Below, piece after piece: positions 20,682-51,374 of a stretch of DNA of 64,000 nucleotides. The translations under genes and the position numbers were made by a program. The stretch spans positions 19,950,656-20,014,655 of the forward strand of contig CM065710.1 in NCBI GenBank assembly GCA_017654935.2, read 5' to 3'. The stretch comes from Phymorhynchus buccinoides. Lineage: Eukaryota; Mollusca; Gastropoda; Neogastropoda; Raphitomidae. The notes beneath the pieces are model-generated. The model was given only the letters and a program-made list of their open reading frames with translations, did no database searches and had not been told where the DNA came from. How positions within the stretch are numbered: position 1 is the stretch's first letter; every line of letters begins with the position of its first letter.

Positions 20682-21844
20682 CTTTTAACCATCTTATTTT
20701 AACTATCTTATTTTAACTATCGTATTTTAACTATCTTATTTTAACTATCGTATTTCAACTATCTTATTTCAACTATCTTATTTTAACTATCGTATTTTAA
20801 CTATCTTATTTTAACTATCGTATTTCAACTATCTTATTTCAACTATCGTATTTTAACTATCGTATTTTAACTATCTTATTTTAACTATCGTATTTTAACT
20901 ATCGTATTTTAACTATCGTATTTTAACTATCGTATTTTAACTATCTTATTTTAACTATCGTATTTTAACTATCGTATTTTAACTATCGTATTTTAACTAT
21001 CGTATTTTAACTATCGTATTTTAACTATCGTATTTTAACTATCGTATTTTAACTATCGTATTTTAACTATCGTATTTTAACTATCGTATTTTAACTATCG
21101 TATTTCAACTATCTTATTTTAACTATCGTATTTTAACTATCGTATTTTAACTATCGTATTTTAACTATCGTATTTTAACTATCGTATTTTAACTATCTTA
21201 TTTTAACTATCGTATTTTAACTATCGTATTTTAACTATCTTATTTTAACTATCGTATTTTAACTATCGTATTTTAACTATCGTATTTTAACTATCGTATT
21301 TTAACTATCTTATTTTAACTATCTTATTTTAACTATCTTATTTTAACTATCTTATTTTAACTATCGTATTTGTAACTATCTTATTTCAACTATCGTATTT
21401 TAACTATCGTATTTTAACTATCGTATTTTAACTATCTTATTTCAACTATCGTATTTTAACTATCGTATTTTAACTATCTTATTTTAACTATCTTATTTTA
21501 ACTATCGTATTTTAACTATCTTATTTTAACTATCGTATTTTAACTATCTTATTTGTATTTTAACTATCTTATTTTTAACAATCGTATTTTAACTTTCTTA
21601 TTTGAACTATCTTATTTTAACTATCTTATTTTAACTATCGTATTTTAACTATCGTATTTTAACTATCGTATTTTAACTATCGTATTTTAACTATCGTATT
21701 TTAACTATCGTATTTTAACTATCGTATTTTAACTATCGTATTTTAACTATCTTATTTTAACTATCGTATTTTAACTATCGTATTTTAACTATCTTATTTT
21801 AACTATCGTATTTTAACTTTCGTATTTGAACTATCTTATTTGAG
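20682..21844. repeat. 14-bp satellite (TATTTTAACTATCG/T), about 83 units
   Basis: Nearly uninterrupted tandem array of TATTTTAACTATCG alternating with TATTTTAACTATCT variants. On the minus strand it is GATAGTTAAAATAC/A and begins at the ADAM10 stop codon (AGA TAG CTC AAA TAA GAT AGT). If the ADAM10 transcript is read through here, the first ~1.2 kb of its 3' UTR is this satellite. Every frame of the unit contains stops. Confidence 0.97.
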
Positions 21845-22045
21845 CTATCTCATCTGGTGAAGGCTGTACGCACCCTGTCCTGCTCCTCGGCGGTGGCGTC
21901 GTCGCAGGGTGAGGGTGGTGCTCAGCTTGCGGGCCTTGGACTTGCGGGGGTTGGAGCTGGGGGTGTGCACTGCGCACACCTTGATGAACACCGACATCAC
22001 CACGATCAGCCCCAGGCTGATCAGCAGCACCGCCCACCAATGGAT
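21845..22045 (-). CDS. ADAM10: ADAM10 last exon: transmembrane helix and cytoplasmic tail
   Basis: Acceptor GACCTTCCAG|ATCCATTGG; 66 codons and a TAG at 21847-21845. It starts with [20 protein letters not shown], continues [13 protein letters not shown] (human: AHWWAVLL..., [14 protein letters not shown]), then a Lys/Arg-rich tail containing TLRRRHRR and ending AYSLHQMR (human ends SYQMGHMRR). The arginine cluster corresponds to the ER-retention motif described for ADAM10. The stop codon is also the first unit of the 14-bp satellite that follows. Confidence 0.95.
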   Translation of the reverse strand: MHWWAVLLISLGLIVVMSVFIKVCAVHTPSSNPRKSKARKLSTTLTLRRRHRRGAGQGAYSLHQMR

Positions 22046-34597: not shown

Positions 34598-35097
34598 NNN
34601 NNNNNNNNNNNNNNNNNNNNNNNNNNNNNNNNNNNNNNNNNNNNNNNNNNNNNNNNNNNNNNNNNNNNNNNNNNNNNNNNNNNNNNNNNNNNNNNNNNNN
34701 NNNNNNNNNNNNNNNNNNNNNNNNNNNNNNNNNNNNNNNNNNNNNNNNNNNNNNNNNNNNNNNNNNNNNNNNNNNNNNNNNNNNNNNNNNNNNNNNNNNN
34801 NNNNNNNNNNNNNNNNNNNNNNNNNNNNNNNNNNNNNNNNNNNNNNNNNNNNNNNNNNNNNNNNNNNNNNNNNNNNNNNNNNNNNNNNNNNNNNNNNNNN
34901 NNNNNNNNNNNNNNNNNNNNNNNNNNNNNNNNNNNNNNNNNNNNNNNNNNNNNNNNNNNNNNNNNNNNNNNNNNNNNNNNNNNNNNNNNNNNNNNNNNNN
35001 NNNNNNNNNNNNNNNNNNNNNNNNNNNNNNNNNNNNNNNNNNNNNNNNNNNNNNNNNNNNNNNNNNNNNNNNNNNNNNNNNNNNNNNNNNNNNNNNN
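34598..35097. other. Assembly gap of exactly 500 N
   Basis: Second 500-N placeholder. It follows an ADAM10 exon and is bounded on the right by a ~86-bp tandem repeat that probably continues into it. Missing upstream ADAM10 exons could lie here. Confidence 0.99.
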
Positions 35098-35575
35098 TTG
35101 GAATGGAATGAACAGAGAACAGGATGGCAGAGCCATATAAATTGTACTCCCAGTAACTGATGAAAGGCGAGGGAGATAGTTGGATTGGAATGGAATGAAC
35201 ATGAACAGAACAGGATGGCAGAGCCATATAAATTGTACTCCCAGTAACTGATGAAAGGCGAGGGAGATAGTTGGATTAGAATGGAATGGAATGGACAGAG
35301 AACAGGATGGCAGAGCCATATAAACTGTACTCCCAGTAACTGATGAAAGGCGAGGGAGATAGTTGGATTGGAATGGAATGGAATGAACAGAGAACAGGAT
35401 GGCAGAGCCATATACATTGTACTCCCAGTAACTGATGAAAGGCGAGGGAGATGGTTGGATTAGAATGGAATGGAATGGACAGAGAACAGGATGAATTGTA
35501 CTCCCAGTAACTGATGAAAGGCAAGGGAGATAGTTGGAATGGAATGAACAGAGAACAGGATGGCTGAGCATATTC
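35098..35575. repeat. ~86-bp tandem repeat, at least five units, open to the gap
   Basis: Unit: ATTGTACTCCCAGTAACTGA, TGAAAGGCGAGGGAGATAGT, TGGATTGGAATGGAATG, AACAGAGAACAGGATGGCAG. The left edge is the N gap. Long minus-strand frames through the N run are artefacts. Confidence 0.92.
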
Positions 35576-36272: not shown

Positions 36273-36350
36273 GGGGGCGGGTCGTACGGGTAACTTTATT
36301 GGTGTTCTACAGCTGCGCAAATAGTGACTCATCAATACCAGCCTATATAA
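36273..36350 (+). promoter_or_regulatory. OAZ core promoter: GC box and TATA box
   Basis: TATATAA lies at 36344-36350 and a GC-box-like GGGGGCGGG at 36273-36281. Transcription would start about 30 bases after the TATA box, near 36375, giving a 5' UTR of roughly 80 bases before the ATG at 36453. The position fits the gene model; the exact start site is inferred. Confidence 0.7.
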
Positions 36351-36452
36351 GACCCGTGTGACAGCCGGAGCCCCCAGAAGAAGCTTCGTTCGTACACGCT
36401 AGCGTCAAGTTTAATTCATTTTTTCTCTTGTTTGTGATTTGAAAGCCGAGAA

Positions 36453-36481
36453 ATGGGTCAGAAAAAGCGTCGTAGAGACAG
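36453..36481 (+). CDS. OAZ: OAZ exon 1 (start codon)
   Basis: Short first coding exon, ATG at 36453 giving MGQKKRRRD plus two bases of the next codon, then the donor AG|GTACAC. The start was chosen because it lies about 80 bases downstream of a likely transcription start, continues in frame into exon 2, and leads directly to the frameshift site. A very short, basic zero-frame leader is plausible for an invertebrate antizyme but its sequence is not conserved, so this exon is less certain than the others. Confidence 0.78.
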
Positions 36482-39400
36482 GTACACTGAGAGATTGATT
36501 TCACCATATTTTGTACACATATTTGACAGAAATATGATATAATATTCGGTAAATGGGGAAAAAATATGGTGAAAACAAATCCAACTTATCATTTTGTATA
36601 CTACATAATATAGCCTGATTCAGGACACTGGTGCACTTTGTGTGTGTGTATGATAGTATCATGTGTGGTTGTTGTTGCAAATTTAAATGGATGACGCTTT
36701 TGACACTGTATTTCTATAGTTATGCAAATGTATGCATGTTTGCTTTCCGTTTTTCAAACTTTCCTGTTGGAGTACTCCTATTTTGTGAAAAATACACTTA
36801 TTTTGGATTTTGAATACACAAAGCCCAATTTCAGGGTAAACATGTCTATATAGATCTTGATACTTGGGTCCCTGTGTTTAGCAGGGCTGTTTAGAACAGA
36901 CTCTATCCTTTGCCCTGATGCTCTCCTTTTCATGTGGCTTTCAAATGCTCGCCTTTTCCATTGTGCGGTTTTACTTTCTTTTTCATTTTTTTTACTTTGT
37001 TTTCTTAGAGGGGCCCATAGTCGAGTGGTTAGAGTGCTCAGCTGTGGTTGTGGGTTTGAGTCCAGCTTGGAGTCGGATTTTTCTGGCCTGAAAACCCTCT
37101 GTGTCCACCCAGCAGTGAATGAGTACCTGATTCGTTCAGGGAAGGTTAACTCATTCGCATTGCAACGATTTTGAATTAATCCACAAAAAAAACCAAATCA
37201 CTCCAGCCATGCACACCTTCCATGATGCCGTGCCCTTGACACGGTGAACCTCTAACAGTTCACTCAGCCCCTACGGCCGATAGGCTGTGGGACACCTTTA
37301 CCTTTACCTTTACCTTTTTCTTGTTAATCTTTTTCTCCTTGGACTTAGTGCTCAAGCCTATTTGGGCTCCTTTTGATTTAGGAAAATAAAACCAAACCAG
37401 TCCTTGAGTTGTGAGGGAGTTACTTGATTAAATATTATGATAAAAATTTCACTGTCTATAATTTCCCTTTGTAGTTTTTATTATTATACTGTTGGTTGCA
37501 GGGCTTAATGTAATGAGGACGTTGTAGTGAACATTGTATACTATTGCTACATTTCACTTTTCGGGTGTATTTGATTTTTTACTATAGTATAAAAACTATA
37601 ATTATGTCTGTGTTGTTGTGTTGCAGTATATATCCAGTAGTCGTTTCATTATAATGATTATTGTTACCATTTTCTCTGTATGTGTGCGGTTTTTTTGTGC
37701 TGCAGTATATCCAGTAGTTGTTTCATAATACGGCTGGGTCCAGGCTCCTGATGTGACAGTGTGTGCGTTGTTTTTGTGCTGCAGTATATCCAGTAGTTGT
37801 TTCATTATACGGCTGGGTCCAGGCTCCTGATGTGACAGTGTGTGCGTTGTTTTTGTGTTGCAGTATATCCAGTAGTCGTTTCATTATACGGCTGGGTCCA
37901 GGCTCCTGATGTGACAGTGTGTGCGTTGTTTTGTGTTGCAGTATATCCAGTAGTCGTTTCATTATACGGCTGGGTCCAGGGCCTCTGTGGTGCTCCTGAT
38001 GTGCCCCACGCCGCTCATGAATCCCAGGTGAGCGCTGCCAGCAGTAGAAGCAGTAGTGGTACATTCATCATGTCATGGGTGAATACCGTAATTCGCGATA
38101 AGCCGCAACTTTTTTTGGGGCACCCTCACCCCCCTTGCGGCTAGTACAGTGCCGCGGCCTAAGCGTTACTGAAAGTGAAAGTAAACTCAACTCAGTGGCA
38201 TCCTTGATTCAGACCTTTGATCTGTGGCCTTCACGGTTGATGACAAAAAAATCACCTTGATTTGGGTATATTTTTCACAAAATGACGATCTGTTTCGCGG
38301 TCCGACACTTTCGTTTTGGCAGTCAACACACCCGCGATCAACTCTAGACTCAACCGGAAGCGGACATCGTGCATCGCCACGCTTCCGCGGCTTATGCTTC
38401 GACGCGGCTTATGCGTTACTTTTTTCAGATTTTTTTTTAAAGTAGGGGGTGCGGCTTATATTACGAAGCGGCTCGTAGTCCGTGAATTACAGTAGTTCAG
38501 GTATGCTCCTGAAATCAGGATTGAAAAAGCTTGTTGAAAGAGTCTTCAGGGTTGCCCATCTTGTCGTCCATGGTCATATAAAATCGAACATTTCTGCCAA
38601 AATTGATGGCAGATTAAAACAAGATGAAAGATACGTGAATCGAACACTATCCCCACCCTTCCTGTATACACAGACACACACACATTGGAAACTATATTTA
38701 CTGTGATCACCACTTCAGGATTGGGAAGATTCAGAGAACATTGAAATGTGTTGTTTCAGGGTTGAGATAATATTTTACTTTCATCCATGAGTAGTAGTAC
38801 ATTTTCTTCTTCGTCGATCACTCACACAGTCTCCTGTCATGAGCGCAGATGCGTCATACTGCCTTTATGCATCTTGCTAAGAAATGTTTAGGCCCAGCAT
38901 GTCCTGTCTTCAGTTGGACAACATTTTTGTAAGAGTTTCTAGAACAAAGGCAGGAGAATGGACCAGTAAGGCAGAAAGATAGTAGATGACAGTAAGCAAA
39001 AGGGAAAAGGCAGAGTCAAAGAGAGTGATTAGAGGAAGTTACAAACACAGCACTTTTCCACAAGGTAGGGGAACTATTTGTACAAAGGTACAAAAGCCAA
39101 GTAATCTCATGCTAATGATATATATATATGTGTGTGTTGACCTTTTGATTGAGAGGTGTCATTGATCGATGACAGAATCAGTGTTAAAAGTTGGCTAAAG
39201 TGATGCTAATGATATGCGTGTTGACCTTTTGACGGGCAGGTGACAGAGGGCAACGGGTTGTTTTTAAAAAAATCGCCCACTGTCCGTAAAAAAAAGAAAG
39301 CGCCCCCTGTCAGTGTTAATGTGATGCTAATGACATGCGTGTTGGCCTTTTTGACGGGCAGGTGTCATTCGTGACAGAGGGCAACGGCGTGGGGGTTTTA

Positions 39401-41945
39401 AAAGCGCCCCCTGTCAGTGTCGAAGGCTTGATTGCCAACGACTCTCTTTTCGCTTCTTCGTCTTCACCCGCAGTGAAAGGCTTCTCTCCGCTGCCATGCT
39501 TGGCAACGGCAACACCGCCGGCAACGGACGGCAACAACGGCAGTGCCGACAAAGGCTTTGTTGCCGAGACTGCCGTCAGTAGTGTCACTGCCGCTTTGCA
39601 CCGCCTTACTCTTCTTGGAAAAGGTGAGTGTATGGATATTTGTTTCTCATGATTGGTCATGGTAGGGCTGCTTTTCTTTTCCCCCGACACACCTGTCTTC
39701 CGGGGTTTTGGAGTGCCCAAAATGTGGTTTCCGTGGGTGTTTTGGAGTGCCCAAAATGTGGTTTCCGTGGGTGCCCAAAATGTGGTTTCCACTTTTTGAA
39801 GTACCCCAAAATATGGTTTCCAGTTTATAGAGTACCCCAAAATGTGGTTTCCTTTTTTTTTTGGAGTGCCCCAAAATGTGGTTTCCACTTTTTGGAATGC
39901 CCCAAAATATGGTTTCCAGTTTTAATATAGTGCCCAAAAATATGGTTTCCATTTTTGAGAGTACCCCAAAATGTTTCCAGTTTTTGGAGTGTCTCAAATG
40001 TGGTTTCCAGTTTTGGGAGTACCAAAAATGTGGTTTCCAGTTTTGGGAGTGCACAGAAATATGACTTCTGGTGTGTTTTTAGAGTACCCCGAAATGTTTT
40101 TGGAGTGTCCAAGAATGTGGTTTCCAGTTATTAATGTATGGACAATGCTTTATTCAGACTATAAGGCGATACTTTTTTCCCAAAGTGAGGGCCTTGTAAT
40201 AATTATGACTAATAGTAATATAGTAACATATGAGAACAAATCTGAATTGTTTGTAAAATGTGGGGTGTGTGCCTTATAGTCAGAAAAACACAACTTTCTC
40301 TCCTGTGGTAAATAGGATGTTATGTTTTTATGTGTAGGGGTACACAGTGTGTGGCTTGTGTAATGTGTGTGTGTGTGGACTCTGTGTGTGTGTGTTTGAA
40401 CAGAACAGAGTGGTAAGAACCCACTGACATCTGAACTGTGTGTGTGTGGACTCTGTGTGTGTGTGTGGACTATGTGTGTGTGTTTGAACAGAATAGAGTG
40501 GTAAGAACCCACTGACACCTGACATCTGTGTGTGTGTGGACTCTGTGTGTGTGTGTGTGTGTGAACAGAACAGAGTGGTAAGAACCCACTGACACCTGAC
40601 ATCTGTGTGTGTGTGGACTCTGTGTGTGTGTGTGTGTGCATGTGTGTGTGTTTGAACAGAACAGAGTGGTAAGAACCCACTGACACCTGACATCTGTGTG
40701 TGTGTGGACTCTGTGTGTGTGTGCATGTGTGTGTATTTGAACAGAACAGAGTGGTAAGAACCCACTGACACCTGACATCTGTGTGTGTGTGGACTCTGTG
40801 TGTGTGTGTTTGAACAGAACAGAGTGGTAAGAACCCACTGACATCTGACCTGTGTGTGTATGTGGACTCTGTCTATGTGTGTTTGCGGACACTGTGCTTG
40901 TGTGTGTGCGTCTGTGCATGTGTGTGTGCTTGCTATGTTGAAATCTGATAGGCTGTAAGTGATAGGCTGTAAGTGTAACCGGATAACCTACTAACCCCCT
41001 TATCTTTACTGGCTGGTTGACAAAAACATGAACCAACCAAAACAACTAAGTCACACTAACAGTACACTGTGCCAGTACTGTATCATTACAGGCCCTTGAC
41101 TCAAATGCATGGGTGCAACTTTTCCTGGTATACAAGGATGTCCTGTTTTTGAATTTTACCAGAAAAGGAAGTTCCTTTCTTTTAAATTTGTCAAACAATA
41201 TCTTTGTGTGTCTACTGTATTTTTCAAACACTTTAAAAATAAAATAAGCATTTGTATAAATTGTGGAAAAAGCAAACTAAAATACCTTCATAAATCAATG
41301 TTTGCTTCAGCTGCAGGGGGACATTACCCCTGGACCCCGGCCTTTCAGGGTTTTTTCATTTTTGTGTAGGTGCACCCATGCAAATATAATGGTGCATAAT
41401 TCGCTCTTTTAAGCAAAAGCCAAAAATAGTCATCCACCCCCAAAATACCAGTTTTCTATTTAGGTTTTCTATTTTAGTTTTCATAGGGCATATTTGTATG
41501 AAATTTGTTTTTACCAGTGTCCACAACATGAAAGACTATTTTGAACGATTCATTTGTTAATTTGATTGTTTTTTTGTTTTTTAATCAAGTCATTAGAAAT
41601 AAAGAGGCAACATTTAGGATTATTTTGTAAGGTTTTATAAGGGAGGTACTGGGTGTTGGTGATATGAGGAGGTTGATAAAGGTGTCTAGTGAGATATAAC
41701 ATGTGTGACGTGACTGATCACAGGATGGCAGTTGTTGCGTGTTGTTATCAGTCCGATTCAGGATGTTGGCTGATCGATCGGGCAAGGTCTTTGGATCAGG
41801 GTCCAACACTTTCTATCTCGATATCTGTATTGTTTACCTCTCTCTGTATCTCACCTATATTGTTTACCAACCCGTTTCGTTTTCCTTTTCTGGATAATTG
41901 GTGTTATCAGGCTGTCTCTCAGTCTTATGCTTGCGCGTGCACACA

Positions 41946-41992
<47 letters not shown>

Positions 41993-44900
41993 GCGCGCGC
42001 ACGCATCCACACAGATAGAAAGGCAGATGCACACGCACATACACGCACTCACACACACACACAGATAGAAAGGCAGATACGCACCCCCACCCCACCCTAC
42101 CAACCCGTTTCTTTATCCTTAATTTCTGGATAATTGGTGTTATCAGGCTGTCTCTGTCTCATGCTTGCGCATGCACACACACACGCACGCACACAGATAG
42201 AAAAGCAGATGGGCAAACACGCACACACACACGCACGCACGCACCCCCCTACCAACCCGTTTCTTTTTCCTTTTCTGGATAATTGGTGTTATCAGGCTGT
42301 CTCTCAGTCTTATGCTTGCGCGCACACACACACACACACAGATAGAAAGGCAGATGCGCCCACATGCACACACACACACACACACACACACAGATTGGCA
42401 TGGGCGCAGACGCATGTATGCAATATCTAGTAGACACACAACACAAACCCCACGCACATAAGGTTTAGGCACACACATTGACTGGGATCTGCCAAGCACT
42501 CCCTTTTGAGCGGAACTTGTTTTGCTCAAACCAACTTTATTCAGGCATGGGAATGTTCAGCTTTTAATCAACTTTCAGCTTTTTTGATGGCCCCAGAGGA
42601 CATTTTTAGAAAAGAAACCAAGTAAGAATTATTTTTTATGAGAGAGAGAGAGAGAATCTGTTTAACGCAGAGATCAATCTTGTCACAGAACATCATAGGT
42701 CATTTGTCCATTTCGAAGAAAATATAGGTCATTTTCATAAAACAATGTCATAATGTAAAAAAAAAAAAAAAAAAAGGAAATGCAACTTGAGCGCAACAAA
42801 TACTGTTTTCTAGGACACTGTTGCAATGAATCACATAGTTTCACAGACTGCATGTTCAAAAAACGACATAAGAACAGGTTTTGATGTGCTTTTTATATAT
42901 ATTATATTTTGCATGAAAAAAGCTAGTACATTGATATGCAATTGATATGCAATGTAAAGTAATAATAGGGCAATTATTTTTAGTCTTTTGTTTCATCTAA
43001 GCCAATCTAATCACAATCTAATCAGTTGCAGCGCACATCAAAATCTTTAAAGTTGCTAATATACATGAAGTAAACATAATAAGTCATATGACCTCTTACC
43101 ACCAAAAACAATATTAATACAAATAATAGGTCATTTCAAAATTTTATCAGTCAATGACTGATGACCGGTGCTAAGAATAATCCCTGTATAACGTCCTCCG
43201 GTCTGGAACAGACACATATGGGACATTAGTAGATATAAAGATGATGGGAACGATCCTGGAGACAATGCCCGGAGGCAGTGCATCACCAGTAAAGTCCGGA
43301 ATTTTGAACAATACAGATATTCTAATGAGTGAATGCAAAATGAACTAAATGCTAATTCTAATGCTGTTGTTTTTGTAGTCCCAGATCTATAAGAACTGTG
43401 TGTGCGTCAGTGTGTAACCCAAATGTGTTCTAGTCCATAGCACCTAACTTCCTAAGCCACTGGACCAATCGTAATACAACTTGGTACAGTGGAACCTCCC
43501 TTATAAGACTTCCCATTACAAGACTCCCTCCTGTATAAGACCTACTTCACTGAGACTGCCATTCTTTGCAAGTATTAACATTACCTCCCTTATAAGACCC
43601 CTCCCTTATAAGACTCGATTTTGGATTATTTTTGAAGGTCTTATAAGGGAGGTTCCACTCTACAATGATTCCCACTATGTCATATTCACAGAACAAGCCA
43701 TATCAAAGTAATCCCAGTGAGTACATTTTGAATATTAAAAAACACTGATTATTGAAAAGATAATGGGTGAATTTAAACCAAAGTATTTTAGTAAGTATAC
43801 TGAAAATGGATTACTTGATACTCTTTTGTTGCAAAATATATTATTTCTAAACAATGTTATGCCAATACAGGAAATTATTAAATACACAATGACCATACAG
43901 TCCAAAATTAACTCCCCCAAATTTCATCAGTTGGTCCTATTTGATCAAGGGAGATCATTTGAAATTTACAAGTGGCATGCAATTATTTTCCCATTTTTAT
44001 TTTGCGTGTGTGTGTGTGTGTCTGGTGGGGAGTATATGTGTGTGGGTGTTGCTGGTACATGTAACTGGGATTACGTTTATAGGGCGTTGCGCTCTTGTTT
44101 AACCCCTTGACTGCCATCAATGTATTACATGCTGACCTGATGACATCACTGATGATGTCATCAGATGAAGAGGAATAACCCTGATACGCTGGCTTTTGCT
44201 CTAACATAATCAAGAGAGTAATATCCCCAGACCTTTTTCTCAGATTGGCTCTATCAGTTGTCTTTTTCATGTCATGATTTGCCCAATTATTTTTTCTTCA
44301 ATTTTCTCTGGCAGTCAAGGGGTTAACTCCGTTGAGGCTTAGATTACGAAATAAGCTTCAGCTTCAGGGGGATTTCAATGCAGGGCTCCCAGGGACCCCC
44401 ATTTGGGGGTCTATGAAGCACTAAAATTCTAAAGGACCCTCTAAAAGAATGTGCAGGGATGCACTAGAAAAATACTTTTTAGCATTTGCAATGCCACTGG
44501 GACCCTCTATCCCTCCTCTAGCAGACCTGTTTACTCTACTCTTTTCGAGTAGTATTCTACTCAATTTGGACCTCTACTACTCTTCAAAATTGAAAGTAAT
44601 GCTCTAATTACTCATTTTTTCAGTGAACATTATTTGATGGTTTAATGAATAAAACTACACATTTTGCACCAAAACTACTCATTTCAGCTATCCAGACTAC
44701 TCAAGACTTGTGTAGTTGATAAACAGGTCTGCTCTAGGACCCTCTATACTGTAAGTGAAGGAGTCCCTGGGACCCCTTGTTTTGCGGGACGATTGGGAGC
44801 CCTGTCCATGATTCCCGAATCCCATGCCTGTCCGTTGTTTTCTCCAGGTGAGGTGGGCCATGACCCAGCATCCGGCTCCTCCCCGGCGGTGAACCTGTGC

Positions 44901-47900
44901 TTCAAGGTGAGCCCCGTGGCTCAGCTGGAGGTGGTCTGGGAGACCATCCTGGTGGACAGCCACAGGCTCTACGTGGAGGTCCCCCCGGGCATCCTGCCCC
45001 AGGGATCCAGAGAGAGGTACTTCCGGCTGTTGGTGCTCATGTTTCTTCTTCTTGTTAACTCGGACAATTTCCTGTCATATGAGCGTAGATGTGTCATGCT
45101 GCCGTTATACGCCTAACTAAGAAATAGCTAGGCCCGGCATGTCCCACTTCGGCTGAGTACTGATGTTTAGTGTTGACACACACACACCCCGTGGGGATAC
45201 CGGGGTTTTTTCTGTGCAAATAGTTCCCCCACCTTCTGGAAGTTCTGTGCTTGTAGCATCCTGCCCAAGGGATCCAGAGAGAGGTCCATTAGTGTTGATG
45301 TTATCGACACCCACTTGTGGGGATACCGGGGGGGGGGGGGGGGGGTCTTCTGTACAAATAGCAGGGGTGCATGTGGCTGTGCCTGAAGCCTGAATTCAGG
45401 CAATTTGATGCTGGTTCAGGCAGTGGTCTGCCTGAAGATAGGGTTCTTCTTGTGCTCTTTTTGCTCTTAAGGTGACACTGCGCGTTCAGAGGAGAATTTT
45501 TGTTTATTTTTGTTTCTCAGGAACTAATAAAGATATCTACATGAAAGTTTGCACACTGATACAATGCATTACTCTGCCCATTTTAAGCCAACTTTGAAGA
45601 CTCTATGTGATGGCATTATGAAAGTATGGAGTCCAACTAAAACAAATTCATATGATGTTTTATCCCCTCAACAGCACTGGATTGAAGCACTGCATAGTGA
45701 TGCTGATCATTTGTCCACTTTCCTTAGACATCAAAGAGTGCAACTAAGACAAAATTCAGCATCTCTGAGTTCTTAACCCGCATTCTTTGTTTCATCAAAC
45801 AATAGTGAAAATTCACTTGATCTTACTTGAGACAAAGAATGCAAGTTAGCTACTCAGAGATGATAAATTTTATGTTACTTGCACTCTTTGATGTCTCAGG
45901 AAAGTGGACAAATGATCAGCATCACTATGCAGTGCTTCAATCCAGTGCTGTTGAGGGGATAAAACATCATATGAATTTTTTTTAGTTGGACTCCATACTT
46001 TCATAATGCCATCACATAGAGTCTTCAAAGTTGGCTTAAAATGGACAGAGTAATGCATTGTATCAGTGTGCAAAATTTCATGTAAATATCTTTATTAGTT
46101 CCTGAGAAACAAAAATATAAAAAAATTCTCCTCCGAACACGCAGTGTGTCACCTTAAATTGACAGACCTGTTTACCCTCCCGGTTTTGCCGGAATTATCC
46201 CGGGAATTTGCAAAAATTCAGGGTAAAATAATAAATTCAGGGTGAATGTTGAAAATCCCGGGATTTCGAAAAAACGTCTATTATTTGTTTCCGTTTGAAT
46301 GAAAAGACGCAAGGGTTGTAGTTTTGCGCCAAACATGTTGTCAGGCACGTCAACCGCAGGCGACAAGCGCCAGAAATCTTCAACAAGCGACAGCAGTGAT
46401 AGGGTGAAACAGAAGTTTTCTCAAAAGTATTTGAAAGTGCCAGGAATAACAAGTTCACGCTTGGGAGACGAGCATGCACACTGCAAGTACTGCAACGTGC
46501 ACCTTCAAAATTTTGCATGGCGGCATAAGCGACATTGCGATAGTTTTTTTCTCAAATTCCGGGTTTTTCTGTGTCAAATTCCAGGTTCATTATAAGGGTA
46601 AACAAGTCTGAATTGACCATTTTAGCAAGGGTTATGTTGGGAAGTTCAGGCAAACGCTTTGGTCACCGCAAGCCCCCATGAAATAGTTCCCCCACCTTCT
46701 GGAAGTTCTGTGCCTGTAGCTTCCTCTAATCTGTCTCTCTCTTTGACCCTTGACTCAAATATGGTGGTGCATAGGAAAAACAGGCATAAGTCGCTCTTTT
46801 GAGCAAAAGCCCAAAATAGTCAACCACCCCCAAAATACCAGTTTTCTATTTAGGGCATATTTGTATGTAATATTTGTATGAATTTTACCAGTGTCCACAA
46901 CACGAAAGACTATTTTGAATGATTTATTTGTTAATATGATTGTTGCCTTTTTCCTTGCTTTGTGTCGTCTACTATCTGACTTTGGCCCATTCTCCTGCAT
47001 TTTTTCCACCAAAAAATCTTCCATATTGTTTTCTCCTTTGATCTCCAAAATCGAAATGTGTCGGCTGACTGCAGCAAGGACACCTGTGAAAATGGACACA
47101 TACGTATGCATTGTGGCCTTATGGCCTGGGAACGCAGAAGAAGATGTTATTGATATAACAGCGCACGCACGGACGCACGCGCGCCACTGCACGCGAGGGT
47201 GTCGGCTTATTCTTTAACCCTCAATAAAGATGATTTTGACTTGACACACACACACCCCTGTTTTCTTTTTGTTTTGTTTTGTTCAAATGCATGCATATTT
47301 TGTTTTCTGTTGCCCTTGTATCATGACATCACATTGTAATTTCTCTTCTTGAGATAATAAAGTGATTTTGACTTTGATTTGACACACCTAATTATTTGCA
47401 TATAACTTCTGTTTGTGAAAACAAACCCCGATTATGTCTCACCCAAAGGGCCCAGAGAAAGGTTCGCTCTCTGTGTCTGTCTTTCTTTCTCTTTTTCTAT
47501 AAACGCATTGTTCTCTGCTTGATGTGGATGATTATGATGATGACTACAAGATGTTGATCAGGGATGTGAGACTTGCGTGTAAATGCGCTTTTTCTATTCG
47601 ACTAAAAGGAAGAGAAATCAAAAACAATACTTACTGAAGCTTCGCTCGGGAACTAAAAACAACTGTAGAGAGAGAAGTTAATACGTGTGTTAGTTTATAA
47701 TCTGTTTTTATCCCCACGCACAAGATGCATTCTTCTTCTTATGAAGCCAATAAACAGATTGAGTGATTGAGATTGTCAAGTTCGCTAGACTTTCTTCTCG
47801 CGCACACGGTGAAAATGAAAGATGTTTGTAGCGCGAGTACATTCCCTTGACTGAATTTCGTAAGCTTCTCTGTGGTTGGCTTTTTACGTCCAATGGCAAT

Positions 47901-50900
47901 GCGCCATTTTCATGTGTTCGACTTATACGTGGTGGAACTTTACGCAGTGACAGTCCTGAGATAACCACAGCTGTTGATGGGACTATAATAGACTAACTAT
48001 GTGTTCGGCTGCTTCCTCGGTGTGATTTCGAAGGAGGATTTGGATGTTTTCAAAGCTGTTGAAAAAATGTTTCATCTTTAACTCTTCCAGCACCAGGGGC
48101 GAATGTATTCGCCCAGTACATCACACTTCACTCCCACCAAGTGCAAAGACATTCGCTGTCATGTGTTTGTTTATTTTCCAAGCTTACGTCAATGATTTGT
48201 TTAGTTGCAGCAACGCATGCGCACTCGAAAAAATAGTTTCCCCACTCTTTTCGGTTAAGATGCATCGGAGATCTGTCCAAGAACGTCAAAAAATACATGC
48301 CCCTAGAAGAATTAACCATGAAAATTATACATTAGACCATATGATATAGATATGGATAGAAGAGGAGATCGACAAAGGAGGCCAACACAAATTTGACAGG
48401 GCTTGGCTGCATGAAACTGTATCAGACAGTAAGTTAGTGAGTAAGATCCTCGCGTGGGCGAGCCGCGGAACATTGGAAGTTTTGTTGAGCACTTTGTCGA
48501 TGCCATTGGCTATGCTTTTTTGTTTGGGGCACATCCCTGGTTGAAAGCATGGTGGTTATGATAATGCTGACAATGTGAATGGCGTGTTTTCAGCTTGATC
48601 ACGCTATTGGAGTTTGCCGAGGAGCAGCTGAAGTGCACGCACGTCATTCTCTGCTTCAAGAAGAGCAGACCTGACCGCGGTAAGTTTGGGATTGATTTCT
48701 TGAACCACCAACATTTCCAGGTTGGTTGGTTGTTTTTCGCACGAGGTTTCCGTGTGTAATCAGGGCTCCCAGGGACCCCCATTTGGGGGGGTCTGTGAAG
48801 CACTAAAATTCTAAAGGACCCTCTAAAAGAATGTGCAGGGGGTCCCAGGGATGCACTAGAAAAAATCTTTTTAGCATTCGCTATGCCACTGGGACCCTCT
48901 ATCCCGCCACTAGGACCCTCTATAATGTAAGTGAAGGAGTCCCTGAGACCCCTTGTTTTGCGGGACGATTGGGAGCCCTGGTATTGTGCATGAAGCCTGT
49001 TTCACAAAAGACTGAACTTCACCTTAATTCATCATTGATAAAGAGAATCATGTATACCGCAGTGGCAACGAAAAAGTTGTCATTTGGTCAAAATTCCCCC
49101 TCTCCCTCATCAGTGACAAAAATCGCATGCCAAAAAAAAATTGGGTGACGCGCCTCTGGCTGCGACGCGCTCTCCAGGTGGGAGCAACCCGAATTTCACA
49201 GATTATAAAGTGACTATAAAGTACCTAATACCTAATACCTAAAAAAAAAGTTGATTCTAGAGTGCGGGATTCCCACATTTATTCCCCCTAGGACGCAGAC
49301 CTGTTTACCATTCCGGTTTAGCCGGAATTATTCCGGAAATTTTCTAAAATTCCGGGTAAAATAGTAAATTCCGGGTGAACGCTGAAAATTCCGGGATTTC
49401 GAAAAACCGTCTATTATTTGTTTCCATTCGTAGGAAAAGATGCAAGGGTTGACCGAAACATGTACCTAACACGCTAAGTCATCAGAAAAGGGGTTGTGCT
49501 TGACGTCACATGCATTATTAAATGCTGCATTTTCATTGGTTAACACTTGTAACCCCGATTAAAATGATGACTCTACTCCCTGTAACCACCAAATTAATGT
49601 TGGTAAACTGGGCCCCAAATGGGGTACTGTGTTTAAAAATATATTAAAAAAATAACTACTTGATGGATTGAATTCAAATGTTCAGGGTGTGTGTATAAAT
49701 GAAGAATGTTTAACTTGCAATTTTTGTTTTTGTTATGTGGTATTTTTTGGATATTGCAATTTTAACTCCTAAATACATAACGAAGTGGGTGTACGGGGGC
49801 GGTTTTAGACGGCTTGGTAGGAGAAAGTAATGGATGTCATGGGCGGAATCAGGCTATAAGGGGCTTAAAAAGTTAAAGGGGTGAAATAATGTTTTTATTT
49901 TGGTCGATCTATTTCGGGACTGAGCAAATGGCGGCCAGACTTTTACTGTCGATTCGAAGAGCTTTCCAGGCAGTTTTTTAATGGTAGAGATTGTAATTAG
50001 GGCTTGAAATGAGTCAATTTAGATTATATTATCACTGGAAAATACGATGATGTGAGAATTTTGAAGTTTTCAACGGAAAATGAAGTCAAAATTGATCGGG
50101 ATGGCGCCGAGTTGCAACTTGGCATCCGCCGTTCCGCGGCCGAGTGATTTTTCTCTGTCCCATCGTGGACATTTCCAGGTATTTTGCTTTTTCCAGCTTG
50201 TTTTATACTAAAATTGACTAAGAATTAGTGACTGAATTTACTAATAAAACTTTTCTGGCAAAATTGAGCCAAGAAATCATCACAATATTGAAAATCGACT
50301 CCGATGTTCGCGGAAAGGAGAAGAACAAGAAACCGCTTTATCGCGAGTCGTGTACAGATCATGTGAATTCCGGTTTTTGTTATCAAATTCCGGGTTTTTT
50401 GGTGGCAAATTCCGGGTTTTTCATTATAAGGGTCCCCTAAGTATTTGATAAAAAATGCTTTAACAAAAGCAAATACATGCTAAACACACATGCTACATGC
50501 ACAGTGAACACACAGGCAAACACATGTGCATAACCCCTGGAAATTGAAGCATAAAATCGCGAACAGTGCGGCCCAACTCACGCAAAAATAATAAAAACAA
50601 ACGCACTTTTACTTGACGAGTGCGTAGTCGCGGCTGCTGTGTCTATAGCCTTCTCGATATTGAATCGAACCGAGCATCCTTTCTGTCAACGTTTCTGATT
50701 GGCCGATGACCTTGGCTTTGTCCAATCACACAAATTTTCACTCAGGAGCACAGCTTTTGAGTCCTCCATTTTTGTTTTGGTGCACACTATCGAGTTCAAT
50801 GCTACAGTCAGCGATTCTCGTTCTGTTGTAGGGCCTCTAAGGCGAAGTGAGCAAAGAAAACAAAGCAAACTTGTTTTATTTCGTGTTTCGTGGCCTATCA

Positions 50901-51374
50901 ACGAAGGATGTTTGTACAACTAAGAATACACGCAATGGGTCAGGAAGTGAAACGGAACTCGCGATGCCGATGTCAACCAGATCCGAGATTGGAACTTCTT
51001 GAAACTGGAAAGACTCGAAAAACAGTCTTTCCAAAGTTTTAGTTGTGTTTCAAGGAAGAGTGCGACCATTGTGGTGCTAAAAGGCGACATTGGCGGCGAA
51101 AGGGTTAATGGAAATTTGTTGCTGAAAAATGGCTGGCGGTGAAAGGGTTAAAGCCTCATACATTTTGTATTAAATTTATTTTGTGCCTTGTTTTGTTTCG
51201 TTTCCAGGTTCGCTGCTGCGCGTGTTCAACTTTTTCGGGTTCTCCATCCTGCCTCCCAGCCACCCCCTGGTCCCCAGCACTGAGGACCTGCTCTTCATGG
51301 CCTACGTCATCGATAGCGGCAGCAGCGATGACGACGACGACGATGACGATGAAGATATCAGCGGAAGCGAGTAG
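36453..51374 (+). CDS. OAZ: Ornithine decarboxylase antizyme, complete gene, six coding exons
   Basis: Antizyme binds ornithine decarboxylase monomers, sends them to the 26S proteasome without ubiquitin, and represses polyamine uptake. Coding exons are 36453-36481, 37942-38027, 39362-39623, 44848-45016, 48594-48679 and 51208-51374. All junctions are GT-AG and the phases agree (2, 0, 1, 2, 1). The product is about 265 residues, against about 228 in vertebrates. The zero frame stops at a TGA in exon 2. A +1 shift at UCC UGA U opens the main frame, and the residues around it (RLGPGPLWCS then DVPHAAHESQ) match the family's frameshift region. The antizyme fold follows in exons 4-6 (ETILVDS, LYVEVPPGILPQGS, LLEFAEEQL, GFSILPPSHPLVP, FMAYV). 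The exon 3 insert is longer than usual and the C terminus is poly-Asp. Polyamines are known to stimulate the shift in this family, so regulation is probably autoregulatory. Identity is very secure. Confidence 0.96.
36482..37626 (+). other. OAZ intron 1
   Basis: AT-rich intron. It holds a tRNA-derived SINE at about 37009-37318 (CATAGTCGAGTGGTTAGAG; B-box-like GGGTTTGAGTCC; (CTTTAC)n tail) and nothing else recognisable before the exon 2 copies. Confidence 0.75.
37009..37318 (+). mobile_element. tRNA-derived SINE in OAZ intron 1
   Basis: tRNA-like head with A-box-like TAGTCGAGTGGTTAGAG and B-box-like GGGTTTGAGTCCAGC, then TACGGCCGATAGGCTGTGGG and a TTTACCTTTACCTTTACC tail. A different family from the 13.5-kb SINE. 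It lacks the features of an intact tRNA gene. Confidence 0.75.
37627..37941 (+). repeat. Tandem partial copies of OAZ exon 2 with acceptors
   Basis: Four partial copies precede the functional exon, starting after acceptors at 37627, 37706, 37785 and 37864 (spacing 79, 79, 79, then 78 to the real exon at 37942). The last three keep the pyrimidine-rich TTTTTGTG(C/T)TGCAG acceptor, the codons for ISSS(R/C)FIIRLGPG, and then GGC TCC TGA TGT, an in-frame UCC UGA U. They lack the 12 bases that encode part of PLWC, and they lack a good donor. The first copy diverges after about 28 bases. Confidence 0.93.
37942..38027 (+). CDS. OAZ: OAZ exon 2 with +1 programmed frameshift
   Basis: Acceptor TTGCAG|TATATCC and donor CCCAG|GTGAGC. 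The zero frame reads SISSSRFIIRLGPGPLWCS and stops at TGA (37997-37999). Skipping the T at 37997 gives DVPHAAHESQ, which runs in phase 0 into exon 3. The pre-shift LGPGPLWCS and post-shift D-x-P-H are the family signature. The exon is the last and only complete member of a tandem series of partial copies upstream (37627-37941). It carries 12 bases (GCCTCTGTGGTG) between CCAGG and CTCCTGATGTG that the copies lack. Confidence 0.95.
37994..38000 (+). promoter_or_regulatory. OAZ: Antizyme +1 ribosomal frameshift site UCC-UGA-U
   Basis: The context TGG TGC TCC TGA TG is the metazoan antizyme shift site: the ribosome stalls at UGA after a UCC serine codon and slips +1. High polyamine levels are known to favour the slip, closing a feedback loop on ornithine decarboxylase. 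A downstream stimulatory pseudoknot, present in vertebrates, could not be judged by eye. Confidence 0.96.
38094..38493. mobile_element. TACCGTAATTCGCGATAAGCC element in OAZ intron 2
   Basis: Ends TACCGTAATTCGCGATAAG and GTAGTCCGTGAATTACAGTA, TA-flanked. It starts 67 bases after the exon 2 donor. Confidence 0.8.
38800..39095 (-). mobile_element. GTGTCGGCTG-family relative in OAZ intron 2
   Basis: TTCTTCTTCGTCGATCACTC, CTGTCATGAGCGCAGATGCG, GGCAGAGTCAAAGAGAGTG and a GGAACTATTTGTACAAA end. Confidence 0.65.
39104..39361 (+). repeat. Degenerate partial copies of the OAZ exon 3 acceptor region
   Basis: Upstream of exon 3, the segment TGATGCTAATGAYATGCGTG through the acceptor and GTGACAGAGGGCAACGG occurs again at about 39200-39317, with GACGGGCAG|GTGACAG at the boundary. 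A worse copy lies at about 39104-39195. The middle copy ends with a form of CGCCCCCTGTCAGTG, also found inside the true exon, so the copied unit spans the acceptor and about 60 bases of exon. Confidence 0.8.
39362..39623 (+). CDS. OAZ: OAZ exon 3 (variable linker)
   Basis: Acceptor GGGCAG|GTGTCATTC and donor AAAAG|GTGAGTG. It holds 87 codons plus one base, in phase with exons 2 and 4. The peptide is rich in Ala, Ser, Thr, Gly and Pro, with runs built from GGCAACGGC-type repeats, and has no recognisable fold. In other antizymes the segment between the frameshift and the folded domain is also variable. Assignment rests on phase, splice sites and position. An ATG at 39335 in the same frame lies before the acceptor and was not used. 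Partial copies of this exon's acceptor lie just upstream. Confidence 0.85.
39690..40135. repeat. ~35-40-bp tandem repeat directly after OAZ exon 3
   Basis: About 12 degenerate units of CCCAAAATGTGGTTTCCAGT followed by TTTTGGAGTG. Begins about 65 bases after the exon 3 donor. Confidence 0.92.
40140..40930. repeat. TATAAGGCG element and ~80-bp tandem array
   Basis: 40140-40290 has ends ATTCAGACTATAAGGCG and GCCTTATAGTCAGAAAAAC. 40330-40920 holds about seven units of GAACAGAACAGAGTGGTAAG and AACCCACTGACACCTGACAT joined by (GT)n. Confidence 0.85.
41107..41381. mobile_element. GCATGGGTGCA inverted-repeat element
   Basis: Perfect termini GCATGGGTGCA and TGCACCCATGC. The interior has TTACCAGAAAAGGAAGTTCC and CCCCTGGACCCCGGCC. 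A longer relative starts near 60578. Confidence 0.88.
41385..43180. other. OAZ intron 3: CA-rich repeats, no exon seen
   Basis: 41390-41530 is a dispersed segment also at 46755-46930. 41870-42400 holds about three ~165-bp units (TTTCTGGATAATTGGTGTTA, TCAGGCTGTCTCT) with (CA)n tracts. 42400-43180 is AT-rich. The minus-strand cysteine-rich frames come from the CA tracts. Confidence 0.6.
43190..43305. repeat. Second copy of the GTCCTCCGGTCTGGAACAG segment
   Basis: Nearly identical to 13255-13350; see that entry. Confidence 0.75.
43487..43660. mobile_element. CAGTGGAACCTCCC element, single-unit copy
   Basis: CAGTGGAACCTCCCTTATAA to GGGAGGTTCCACT, in OAZ intron 3. Confidence 0.87.
44099..44326. 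mobile_element. TTAACCCCTTGACTGCCA element, complete
   Basis: TTAACCCCTTGACTGCCATC to GGCAGTCAAGGGGTTAA; the full form of the piece at 1-97. The core includes a TGATGACATCA/TGATGTCATCA inverted pair. Confidence 0.87.
44381..44804. mobile_element. CAGGGCTCCCA element split by a CAGACCTGTTTAC element
   Basis: Outer ends CAGGGCTCCCAGGGACCCCC and GGGAGCCCTG. An uninterrupted copy at 48761-48980 defines the empty site. The right end is 43 bases from the OAZ exon 4 acceptor. Confidence 0.9.
44522..44731. mobile_element. Nested CAGACCTGTTTAC element, 6-bp duplication CTCTAG
   Basis: CAGACCTGTTTACTCTACTC to AAACAGGTCTG, with CTCTAG at 44516-44521 and 44732-44737. Confidence 0.93.
44848..45016 (+). 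CDS. OAZ: OAZ exon 4 (start of antizyme fold)
   Basis: Acceptor TTCTCCAG|GTGAGG and donor GAGAG|GTACTT. The peptide contains VNLCFKVSPVAQLEVVWETILVD-like strands, then S-H-R-L-Y-V-E-V-P-P-G and ILPQGSRE, matching the family's W-x-x-x-L-x-x-x-x-L-Y-V-E-x-P-x-G-x-L-P-x-G-S. It is far more GC-rich than its AT-rich, transposon-filled surroundings. An inverted-repeat transposon ends 43 bases before the acceptor. The 3' end with its donor is copied at 45255-45285. Confidence 0.95.
45017..45466. other. OAZ intron 4, start: dispersed repeat pieces
   Basis: (GAA)n-type repeat fragments, two GTGGGGATACCGGGG segments (45190, 45318) and the partial exon 4 copy. Confidence 0.6.
45255..45285 (+). repeat. 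Partial copy of the 3' end and donor of OAZ exon 4
   Basis: GCATCCTGCCCAAGGGATCC followed by AGAGAGAGGT repeats the last ~30 bases of exon 4 and its GT donor (44987-45018) with one C-to-A change. It sits about 240 bases downstream, between two copies of a CCCCGTGGGGATACCGGGG repeat. Confidence 0.8.
45467..46157. mobile_element. Fold-back element, ~335-bp arms, TTAA flanks
   Basis: TTAAGGTGACACTGCGCGTT at the left, AACACGCAGTGTGTCACCTTAA (read in two parts) at the right. The arms are near-perfect inverted repeats around a short centre (about 45800-45830). Both arms contain the same ~65-codon frame (HFKPTLKTLCDGIMKVWSPT). No known domain is recognised in it. Confidence 0.88.
46163..46610 (+). 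mobile_element. CAGACCTGTTTACC element with BED-like finger and 6-bp duplication
   Basis: Ends CAGACCTGTTTACCCTCCC and GTAAACAAGTCTG. AATTGA flanks both sides (46157-46162, 46611-46616). The plus-strand frame from 46299 holds [20 protein letters not shown] then [11 protein letters not shown], as at 27.5 kb. It ties the MITE family to a hAT-like source (inference). Confidence 0.8.
46625..48040. other. OAZ intron 4: repeats, no exon seen
   Basis: 46670-47145 has (GAA)n-type repeat pieces and the segment shared with 41390. 47215-47390 has two AATAAAG(A/T)GATTTTGACTT tails. 47400-48040 is unassigned AT-rich sequence with an 86-codon minus frame of no recognised family. Confidence 0.55.
48044..48350. 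mobile_element. Dispersed element, CAAAGACATTCGCTG family
   Basis: Shares CTCCCACCAAGTGCAAAGAC, ATTCGCTGTCATGTGTTTGT and AACGCATGCG with a reverse copy at 56170-56450. Ends not resolved. Confidence 0.6.
48594..48679 (+). CDS. OAZ: OAZ exon 5
   Basis: Acceptor TGTTTTCAG|CTTGATC and donor CGCG|GTAAGT. The first base completes a serine codon, followed by LITLLEFAEEQLKC, then THVILCFKKSRPDR. The LLEFAEEQL motif and the H-V-x-x-C-F-x-K strand are hallmarks of the antizyme domain that binds ornithine decarboxylase. Confidence 0.96.
48761..48980. mobile_element. CAGGGCTCCCA element, intact copy in OAZ intron 5
   Basis: CAGGGCTCCCAGGGACCCCC to TTGGGAGCCCTG. Begins 81 bases after the exon 5 donor. 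Confidence 0.9.
49055..49248 (+). mobile_element. SINE, 5'-truncated
   Basis: GTGGCAACGAAAAAGTTGTC onward, with the CTGGCTGCGACGCGCTCTCC domain and a TACCTAATACCTAATACC tail, matching 13740-13935. Confidence 0.82.
49296..50435 (+). mobile_element. CAGACCTGTTTACC element, degraded, with nested TTAA element
   Basis: CAGACCTGTTTACCATTCCG, TTCCGGGTGAACGCTGAAAA and the closing ATTCCGGGTTTTTCATTATA match the element at 46163. Its right terminus is missing. A TTAA-flanked insert occupies 49540-49876. Confidence 0.75.
49540..49876 (-). mobile_element. TTAA-flanked nested element, second copy
   Basis: Reverse orientation of 15449-15775 (TTAACACTTGTAACCCCGAT to CTTAAAAAGTTAA). Confidence 0.85.
50436..51207. 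other. OAZ intron 5, last part
   Basis: Mostly unassigned sequence. 51075-51150 carries a GGCGGCGAAAGGGTTAA fragment of the TTAA family. Overlapping frames at 50690-50920 on both strands have no family features. Confidence 0.5.
51208..51374 (+). CDS. OAZ: OAZ exon 6 (last coding exon)
   Basis: Acceptor TTTCCAG|GTTCGC; stop TAG at 51372-51374. It encodes SLLRVFNFFGFSILPPSHP, then LVPSTEDLLFMAYVIDSGSS, an eight-residue Asp run and DEDISGSE. F-x-F-x-G-F-x-x-L-x-P-x-H-P-L-V-P and F-M-A-Y are the C-terminal antizyme strands. The acidic tail is longer than the short Glu run that ends vertebrate OAZ1. Confidence 0.96.

Follow-up and report, generated by a model that had tools for sequence, protein, structure and literature searches.

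The window, a stretch of 64,000 nt, carries, on its + strand, the greater part of an ornithine decarboxylase antizyme gene; exons 2 to 6 lie at 37942..38027, 39362..39623, 44848..45016, 48594..48679 and 51208..51374, the last of them with the stop codon. The true exon 2 has the sequence UGG UGC UCC UGA U at 37988-38000 and ends in the donor CAG/gtgagc. The spliced, +1-shifted product matched PF02100 (ODC_AZ) with E 4.2e-20 (72.2 bits, cut-off 24.2) and solved antizyme 1 structures with a best E of 1.1e-30; the best named homologues were gastropod antizymes, those of Nucella lapillus (68% identity) and Pomacea canaliculata (63%). When the whole genome was searched with the Nucella protein, matches fell at this locus and at an exon 1 on another contig, and no further antizyme locus appeared below E 0.3. 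The junction of exons 2 and 3 reads SQ/VSFVTEGNGVGVLKAPPV; the start of exon 3 was set at 39362 because SQ/VSFVTEGNG is present in nine of the ten first homologues (P0007 starts later). Splicing of donor 38058 to acceptor 39474 would leave an open frame but disagrees with this reading of the homologues, and the junction 38027 to 39362 was kept. A search of Rfam at gathering thresholds returned nothing in the window.

The first exon turned out to be displaced. The first-pass annotation had placed it at 36453-36481 (+ strand; peptide MGQKKRRRD, donor AG/gtacac); the conserved gastropod exon 1 (MLKASDAIVLDENFGPQ...), which tblastn and a motif search did not find in the window, has its coding part instead at 14491-14588 of contig C540, with the donor AT/gtaagc. 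C540 has a length of exactly 25,000 bases, and its end falls within a 92-bp array that resumes at 35098, right after the window's assembly gap of 500 N (34598..35097). Because the same array borders C540 and the gap, C540 most likely belongs in this gap, and scaffolding seems to have cut the antizyme gene in two. With C540 in the gap, the distance from the conserved exon 1 to exon 2 would be ∼13 kb (10,412 + 2,844 bases). With the C540 exon ORF1 has 51 codons, the length given for abalone antizyme ORF1 too (PMC4551804). The conserved exon 1 is in the same phase as the exon at 36453-36481, therefore the frame arithmetic given below stands.

The exon at 36453-36481 was at first favoured for its likeness to a basic N-terminal peptide of the homologue P0006. 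Compared by hand, the peptide of P0006 proved to be a +1-frame reading of the conserved exon 1; the exon itself was found on C540. The MGQKKRRRD exon, unmatched by the homologues read, is thus at most a possible alternative first exon. A TATA-like TATATAAG is present within 36330-36481, followed by the short ORF for MGQKKRRRD with its donor in the right phase. Farther along intron 1, at about 37008-37310, tRNA-like boxes can be recognized by eye (GTCGAGTGGTTAGAGTGCTCAGC ... GGTTTGAGTCC); this sequence is probably a tRNA-derived SINE.

At exon 2, TRF finds a tandem array of period 79 at 37681-37980 (3.8 copies, 97% matches). The first-pass annotation had described three good partial copies and one poor copy of the frameshift exon here, the good ones each with its own acceptor and an in-frame UCC UGA U, spaced by 79 nt and at the last step by 78 nt; TRF, a motif search and the exon-like starts bear out this anatomy. 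The motif CAGTATATCCAGTAG occurs on the + strand of the window only at 37703, 37782, 37861 and 37939. Unit 1 (37681..37759), unit 2 (37760..37838) and unit 3 (37839..37917), all on the + strand, have an acceptor, an exon-2 head starting at 37706, 37785 and 37864, respectively, and the shift core UCC UGA U in frame at 37746, 37825 and 37904; with the true start at 37942 the spacings are 79, 79 and 78, the last being shorter by a single T in a T4/T5 run. Pairwise differences between units 1-3 number 2, 3 and 5 per 79 positions, and two variants are common to units 1 and 2 and absent from unit 3 and the true exon. The degenerate outermost unit, copy 0 (37602..37680, + strand), has an acceptor AG at 37625-37626, an exon-like start at 37627, two extra bases and an exon-like part that is interrupted after TTTCATTATA; transcripts made via its acceptor would stop after nine codons of that part. 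The absence of UGG UGC from the copies, also noted in the first pass, is part of a larger loss of 12 nt (GGCCTCTGTGGT): units 1-3 read GGU CCA GGC UCC UGA, and the true exon 2 reads UGG UGC UCC UGA.

The acceptors of units 1-3 look equal in quality to the true acceptor at 37942. A branch-like CTGAT stands 33-34 nt 5' of the unit 2, unit 3 and true acceptors, and the CTGAT of a unit is its shift site itself; that of unit 3, 33 nt before the true acceptor, fits the branch-site consensus. A query of 501 bases over the array had a single match in the 2.12-Gb assembly, at the antizyme locus.

Scripted translation, with a shift made at every UCC UGA, agreed with the frame chain proposed for the copies. 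Transcripts using the acceptor at 37864 require one +1 shift, those using 37785 two and those using 37706 three, and the frames reached after one, two or three shifts are open to the gene end. A shift in the last copy (unit 3), for which about 30 added codons and an open path into exon 3 had been predicted, adds exactly 30 codons ahead of the true exon's GAU, and the product grows by 26 residues net (314 versus 288). Left unshifted, products of the upstream acceptors have 24 codons when joined to the exon at 36453-36481.

The units are far less complete when considered as frameshift signals. Each of units 1-3 retains the in-frame UCC UGA U; module A (UGG UGC, the conserved codons immediately before the shift site) is absent from all three, and a strict search of each unit found no 3' pseudoknot. 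The strict search gave no match in the unspliced RNA either; the spliced junction of the true exon 2 with exon 3 did match. In the predicted structure the 5' arm of stem 1, CCCCACGCCG (38004..38013, + strand; absent from units 1-3), pairs after splicing with 39385-39394 in exon 3 through 10 Watson-Crick pairs, and stem 2, both arms of which lie in exon 3, joins 39372-39377 to 39411-39416 and crosses stem 1. The strict test, which was defined once the structure was known, was matched by 1 of 3000 shuffles, and a looser one by 113 of 1000. The proteins of homologues are conserved over the stretch concerned. Modelled from one sequence, a 3' pseudoknot across the junction of exons 2 and 3 is likely. 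A nested RNA fold at the same junction was rejected as a signal (z 0.25; 112 of 200 shuffles folded equally well).

Module A and the 3' pseudoknot both matter in the systems described. The strongest effect of the rat 5' stimulator reportedly comes from the three codons before the stop, and a fungal cassette with module A replaced showed 0.6% frameshifting, a 38-fold loss (PMC4505036); a 3' pseudoknot is described as a stimulator in an oyster antizyme (PMC5009743, PMC4505036). The true exon 2 resembles known antizyme +1 frameshift signals in having UCC UGA, UGG UGC and a predicted 3' pseudoknot (PMC5009743, PMC4505036, PMC4551804), and differs from them in that the predicted pseudoknot spans an exon-exon junction. 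Units 1-3, which keep the shift core alone, are to be regarded, as far as their sequence tells, as poor shift sites. The view of the copies as frameshift cassettes therefore lacks support, for want of both stimulators and also because like arrays stand at kinase and chaperonin exons.

The BLAST test for such arrays was applied to 60 loci in the same genome, 30 kinase and 30 chaperonin. Copies of the exon head were found upstream in 13 of the 60 and copies of the tail downstream in 11, so that both acceptor-side and donor-side boundaries are affected; flank controls in the same loci, segments 680-800 nt away that were assumed to be intron, gave 10/60 and 13/60. With matches of up to 350 nt the frequencies were 13/36 for heads, 11/36 for tails, and 10/36 and 11/36 for the controls; with matches longer than 350 nt they were 0/24, 0/24, and 0/24 and 2/24. 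For kinases alone we counted 1/30 heads and 2/30 tails (controls 0/30 and 3/30), for chaperonins alone 12/30 and 9/30 (controls 10/30 and 10/30). All these rates are rough because match ends are not exact exon ends and because all rows were kept, including the near-duplicates L073/L074, L076/L077 and L044-L046 and short cut-out contigs; with head copies in 1/30 of this first kinase set and 0/24 of the longer matches, the rate depends on the sample. The idea that arrays favour exon edges was abandoned, as the boundary rates in the 60 loci showed no enrichment over those of the flank controls. Tandem duplication thus appears to be general in this genome and takes in the edges of short exons as well.

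Twenty more kinase exons, chosen from 142 matches with their flanks not yet seen, had head copies upstream in 4 cases (L051, L060, L062 and L064), the one at L062 being only 16 nt of simple sequence where the match begins; an array at L061 is visible by eye and was missed by the BLAST test. At L035, an exon of a PKN-like kinase, six partial copies of acceptor and head stand upstream (positions 688-1500, TRF unit 124-139 nt), and the same layout occurs at a PLK4-like exon (L051), a CDK4/6-like exon (L060), a receptor tyrosine kinase exon (L061), a GRK-like exon (L064) and chaperonin exons, all gene names having been read from peptides. To our knowledge, no frameshift is known in the sampled kinase and chaperonin genes. 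At a chaperonin exon, L079 (1501-1764), head copies lie upstream and tail copies downstream.

A preference of such spacings for open frames was considered and rejected. Among 50 copies the spacing remainders 0, 1 and 2 occurred 29, 6 and 15 times, and 18 copies were open in frame; 12 of the 18 came from one locus, L069. L069 is a chaperonin exon (match at 1501) with 13 upstream matches, mostly in 69-nt steps, all in frame and open; use of an upstream acceptor there could be tolerated by the protein.

The antizyme gene itself, put through the same BLAST test, showed head copies at exons 2 and 3, two of the five; exon 4 alone had a tail match, and this was short. The second array (39110..39361, + strand) contains two partial upstream copies of the exon-3 acceptor and start, with starts at 39156 and 39240. 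Each of them keeps a branch-like CTAAT, and pieces of the predicted pseudoknot arms are carried along.

Traces of the exon-2 array are present in other records as well. The start of exon 2 is found two times in the N. lapillus protein P0001, as IISNSRYIIRL in the zero frame and as VYPVVVTLYGWVQ in the +1 frame, therefore two copies are implied in the Nucella genome; the public Nucella antizyme model appears to take a boundary copy for an exon, which would be an annotation artefact. P0057, an ORF on a 291-kb contig of another record, has YPVIVM...ADV upstream of the true start, and this looks like a partial upstream copy of the exon-2 start. The two cases suggest that the exon-2 array exists in both of these records.

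We conclude, with a probability of about 0.84, that the array is a 'mirage', as minisatellites of intron-exon boundaries are called, with the terminal acceptor mostly used and one shift made at the intact site. Since the same layout is seen in unrelated genes and at antizyme exon 3, nothing about it is frameshift-specific; it looks like one case of a genome-wide tandem copying of exon edges. The duplicated segment would have comprised the final ∼25 nt of intron 1 and the exon start as far as the shift-site core, minus 12 nt; the differences between units suggest that inner units were multiplied and homogenised and that the outermost unit decayed, the full exon 2 being presumably the last unit of the array. 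Exon 1 would be spliced mainly to 37942, the start of the complete exon with its donor, and antizyme would then come from one +1 shift at the intact site, aided by UGG UGC and the pseudoknot of exons 2 and 3; the pairing is seen in the sequence, and its stimulator function we infer. The upstream acceptors are probably skipped. If used, they would give mainly short ORF1-like peptides, because the shift sites of the units lack both stimulators and small efficiencies in series multiply; multi-shift antizymes would be very rare. Four points speak against the mirage reading: the unit acceptors look as good as the true one, so that skipping of them has to be assumed; the frames form a more orderly chain than this explanation needs; an array at this exon in two further records could have been retained for a function; and the rate of boundary copies at the sampled loci depends on the sample.

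The known counterparts are the mirages of amphioxus (Adh3, TnC, BflGb6/BflGb9 and PGBD5). As described, splice signals are frequent in their units, haplotypes have different numbers of copies (six and three in BflGb6), homogenised inner units contrast with diverged units at the edge, and RT-PCR suggests that regular splicing is undisturbed (PMC3087553); the same pattern is reported for PGBD5, with Adh and TnC cited (PMC3902484). The antizyme array resembles them in placing units of intron end and exon start (other boundaries in some cases) with splice signals beside the authentic exon, in the contrast of homogeneous units 1-3 with diverged copy 0, and in a unit length of the same order (79 nt here, 10-72 and 150-160 bp there). 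It differs from them in belonging to a gastropod-like rather than a cephalochordate genome and in including a programmed frameshift core; many exons were sampled here, where the amphioxus reports concern single genes. Among the matches listed in the open-licence literature, none described mirages in a mollusc. A model in which boundary minisatellites seed new introns has been argued from the amphioxus globins (PMC3087553). The array shares with intron gain by tandem duplication (e.g. PMC4974935, PMC2891723) the copying of splice signals, and differs from it in that exon 2 has acquired no evident new intron or exon.

Other explanations fare worse. Transcripts spliced to upstream acceptors could stop at the first UGA and be lost or left untranslated beyond it, so that array length would tune antizyme output. 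The unit acceptors that match the true one, the branch-like CTGAT sites 33-34 nt before acceptors and the 24-codon unshifted products are in keeping with such unproductive splicing; we consider it unlikely, as amphioxus mirages with duplicated splice signals are described as leaving regular splicing undisturbed (PMC3087553, PMC3902484). One could speculate further that array copy number is a heritable dial on antizyme output, acting through leaky upstream acceptors that lead to early stops or extra shifts. We hold this to be quite unlikely; if true, polyamine feedback would vary between individuals with the length of the array, and boundary arrays in such a genome would keep supplying alternative acceptors and new introns.

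A functional cascade, with upstream acceptors used on purpose and one to three successive +1 shifts giving a steeper polyamine response, would explain why every unit has an acceptor with an in-frame UCC UGA U and why the frames stay open for one, two and three shifts. It is very improbable: the units have neither module A nor the 3' pseudoknot, comparable arrays stand in genes without a known frameshift, and with shifting at the 0.6% observed for the cassette deprived of module A (PMC4505036) two or three serial shifts would be negligible. Least credible of all is an assembly artefact, with units wrongly collapsed or expanded from reads: the array lies 2.6 kb from a gap beside which a 25-kb piece was seemingly cut out, and the difference of 79 and 78 hangs on one T in a T run, but the units have their own substitutions (2, 3 and 5 per 79), the outer unit has diverged, and records of other assemblies (P0001, P0057) contain extra exon-2 starts.

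A frameshift cascade, tempting and in our judgment false, thus gives way to a testable general explanation. A substantial part of the short exons sampled (head 13/36, tail 11/36) have tandem copies of their splice site next to them, and the wider interest lies in how dense such arrays are in a gastropod-like genome. The arrays offer a natural experiment on how the spliceosome chooses among near-identical acceptors and on boundary minisatellites as possible intron seeds. Annotators should be warned, as the Nucella model appears to treat a boundary copy as an exon.

Clear as the exon-2 array is, the window has tandem arrays of period 30-200 in 22 places, and they take up 9,714 of its 63,000 non-N bases. 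A repeat of shorter period, the 14-bp TTTTAACTATCGTA, is present in ∼83 copies at 20683-21849.
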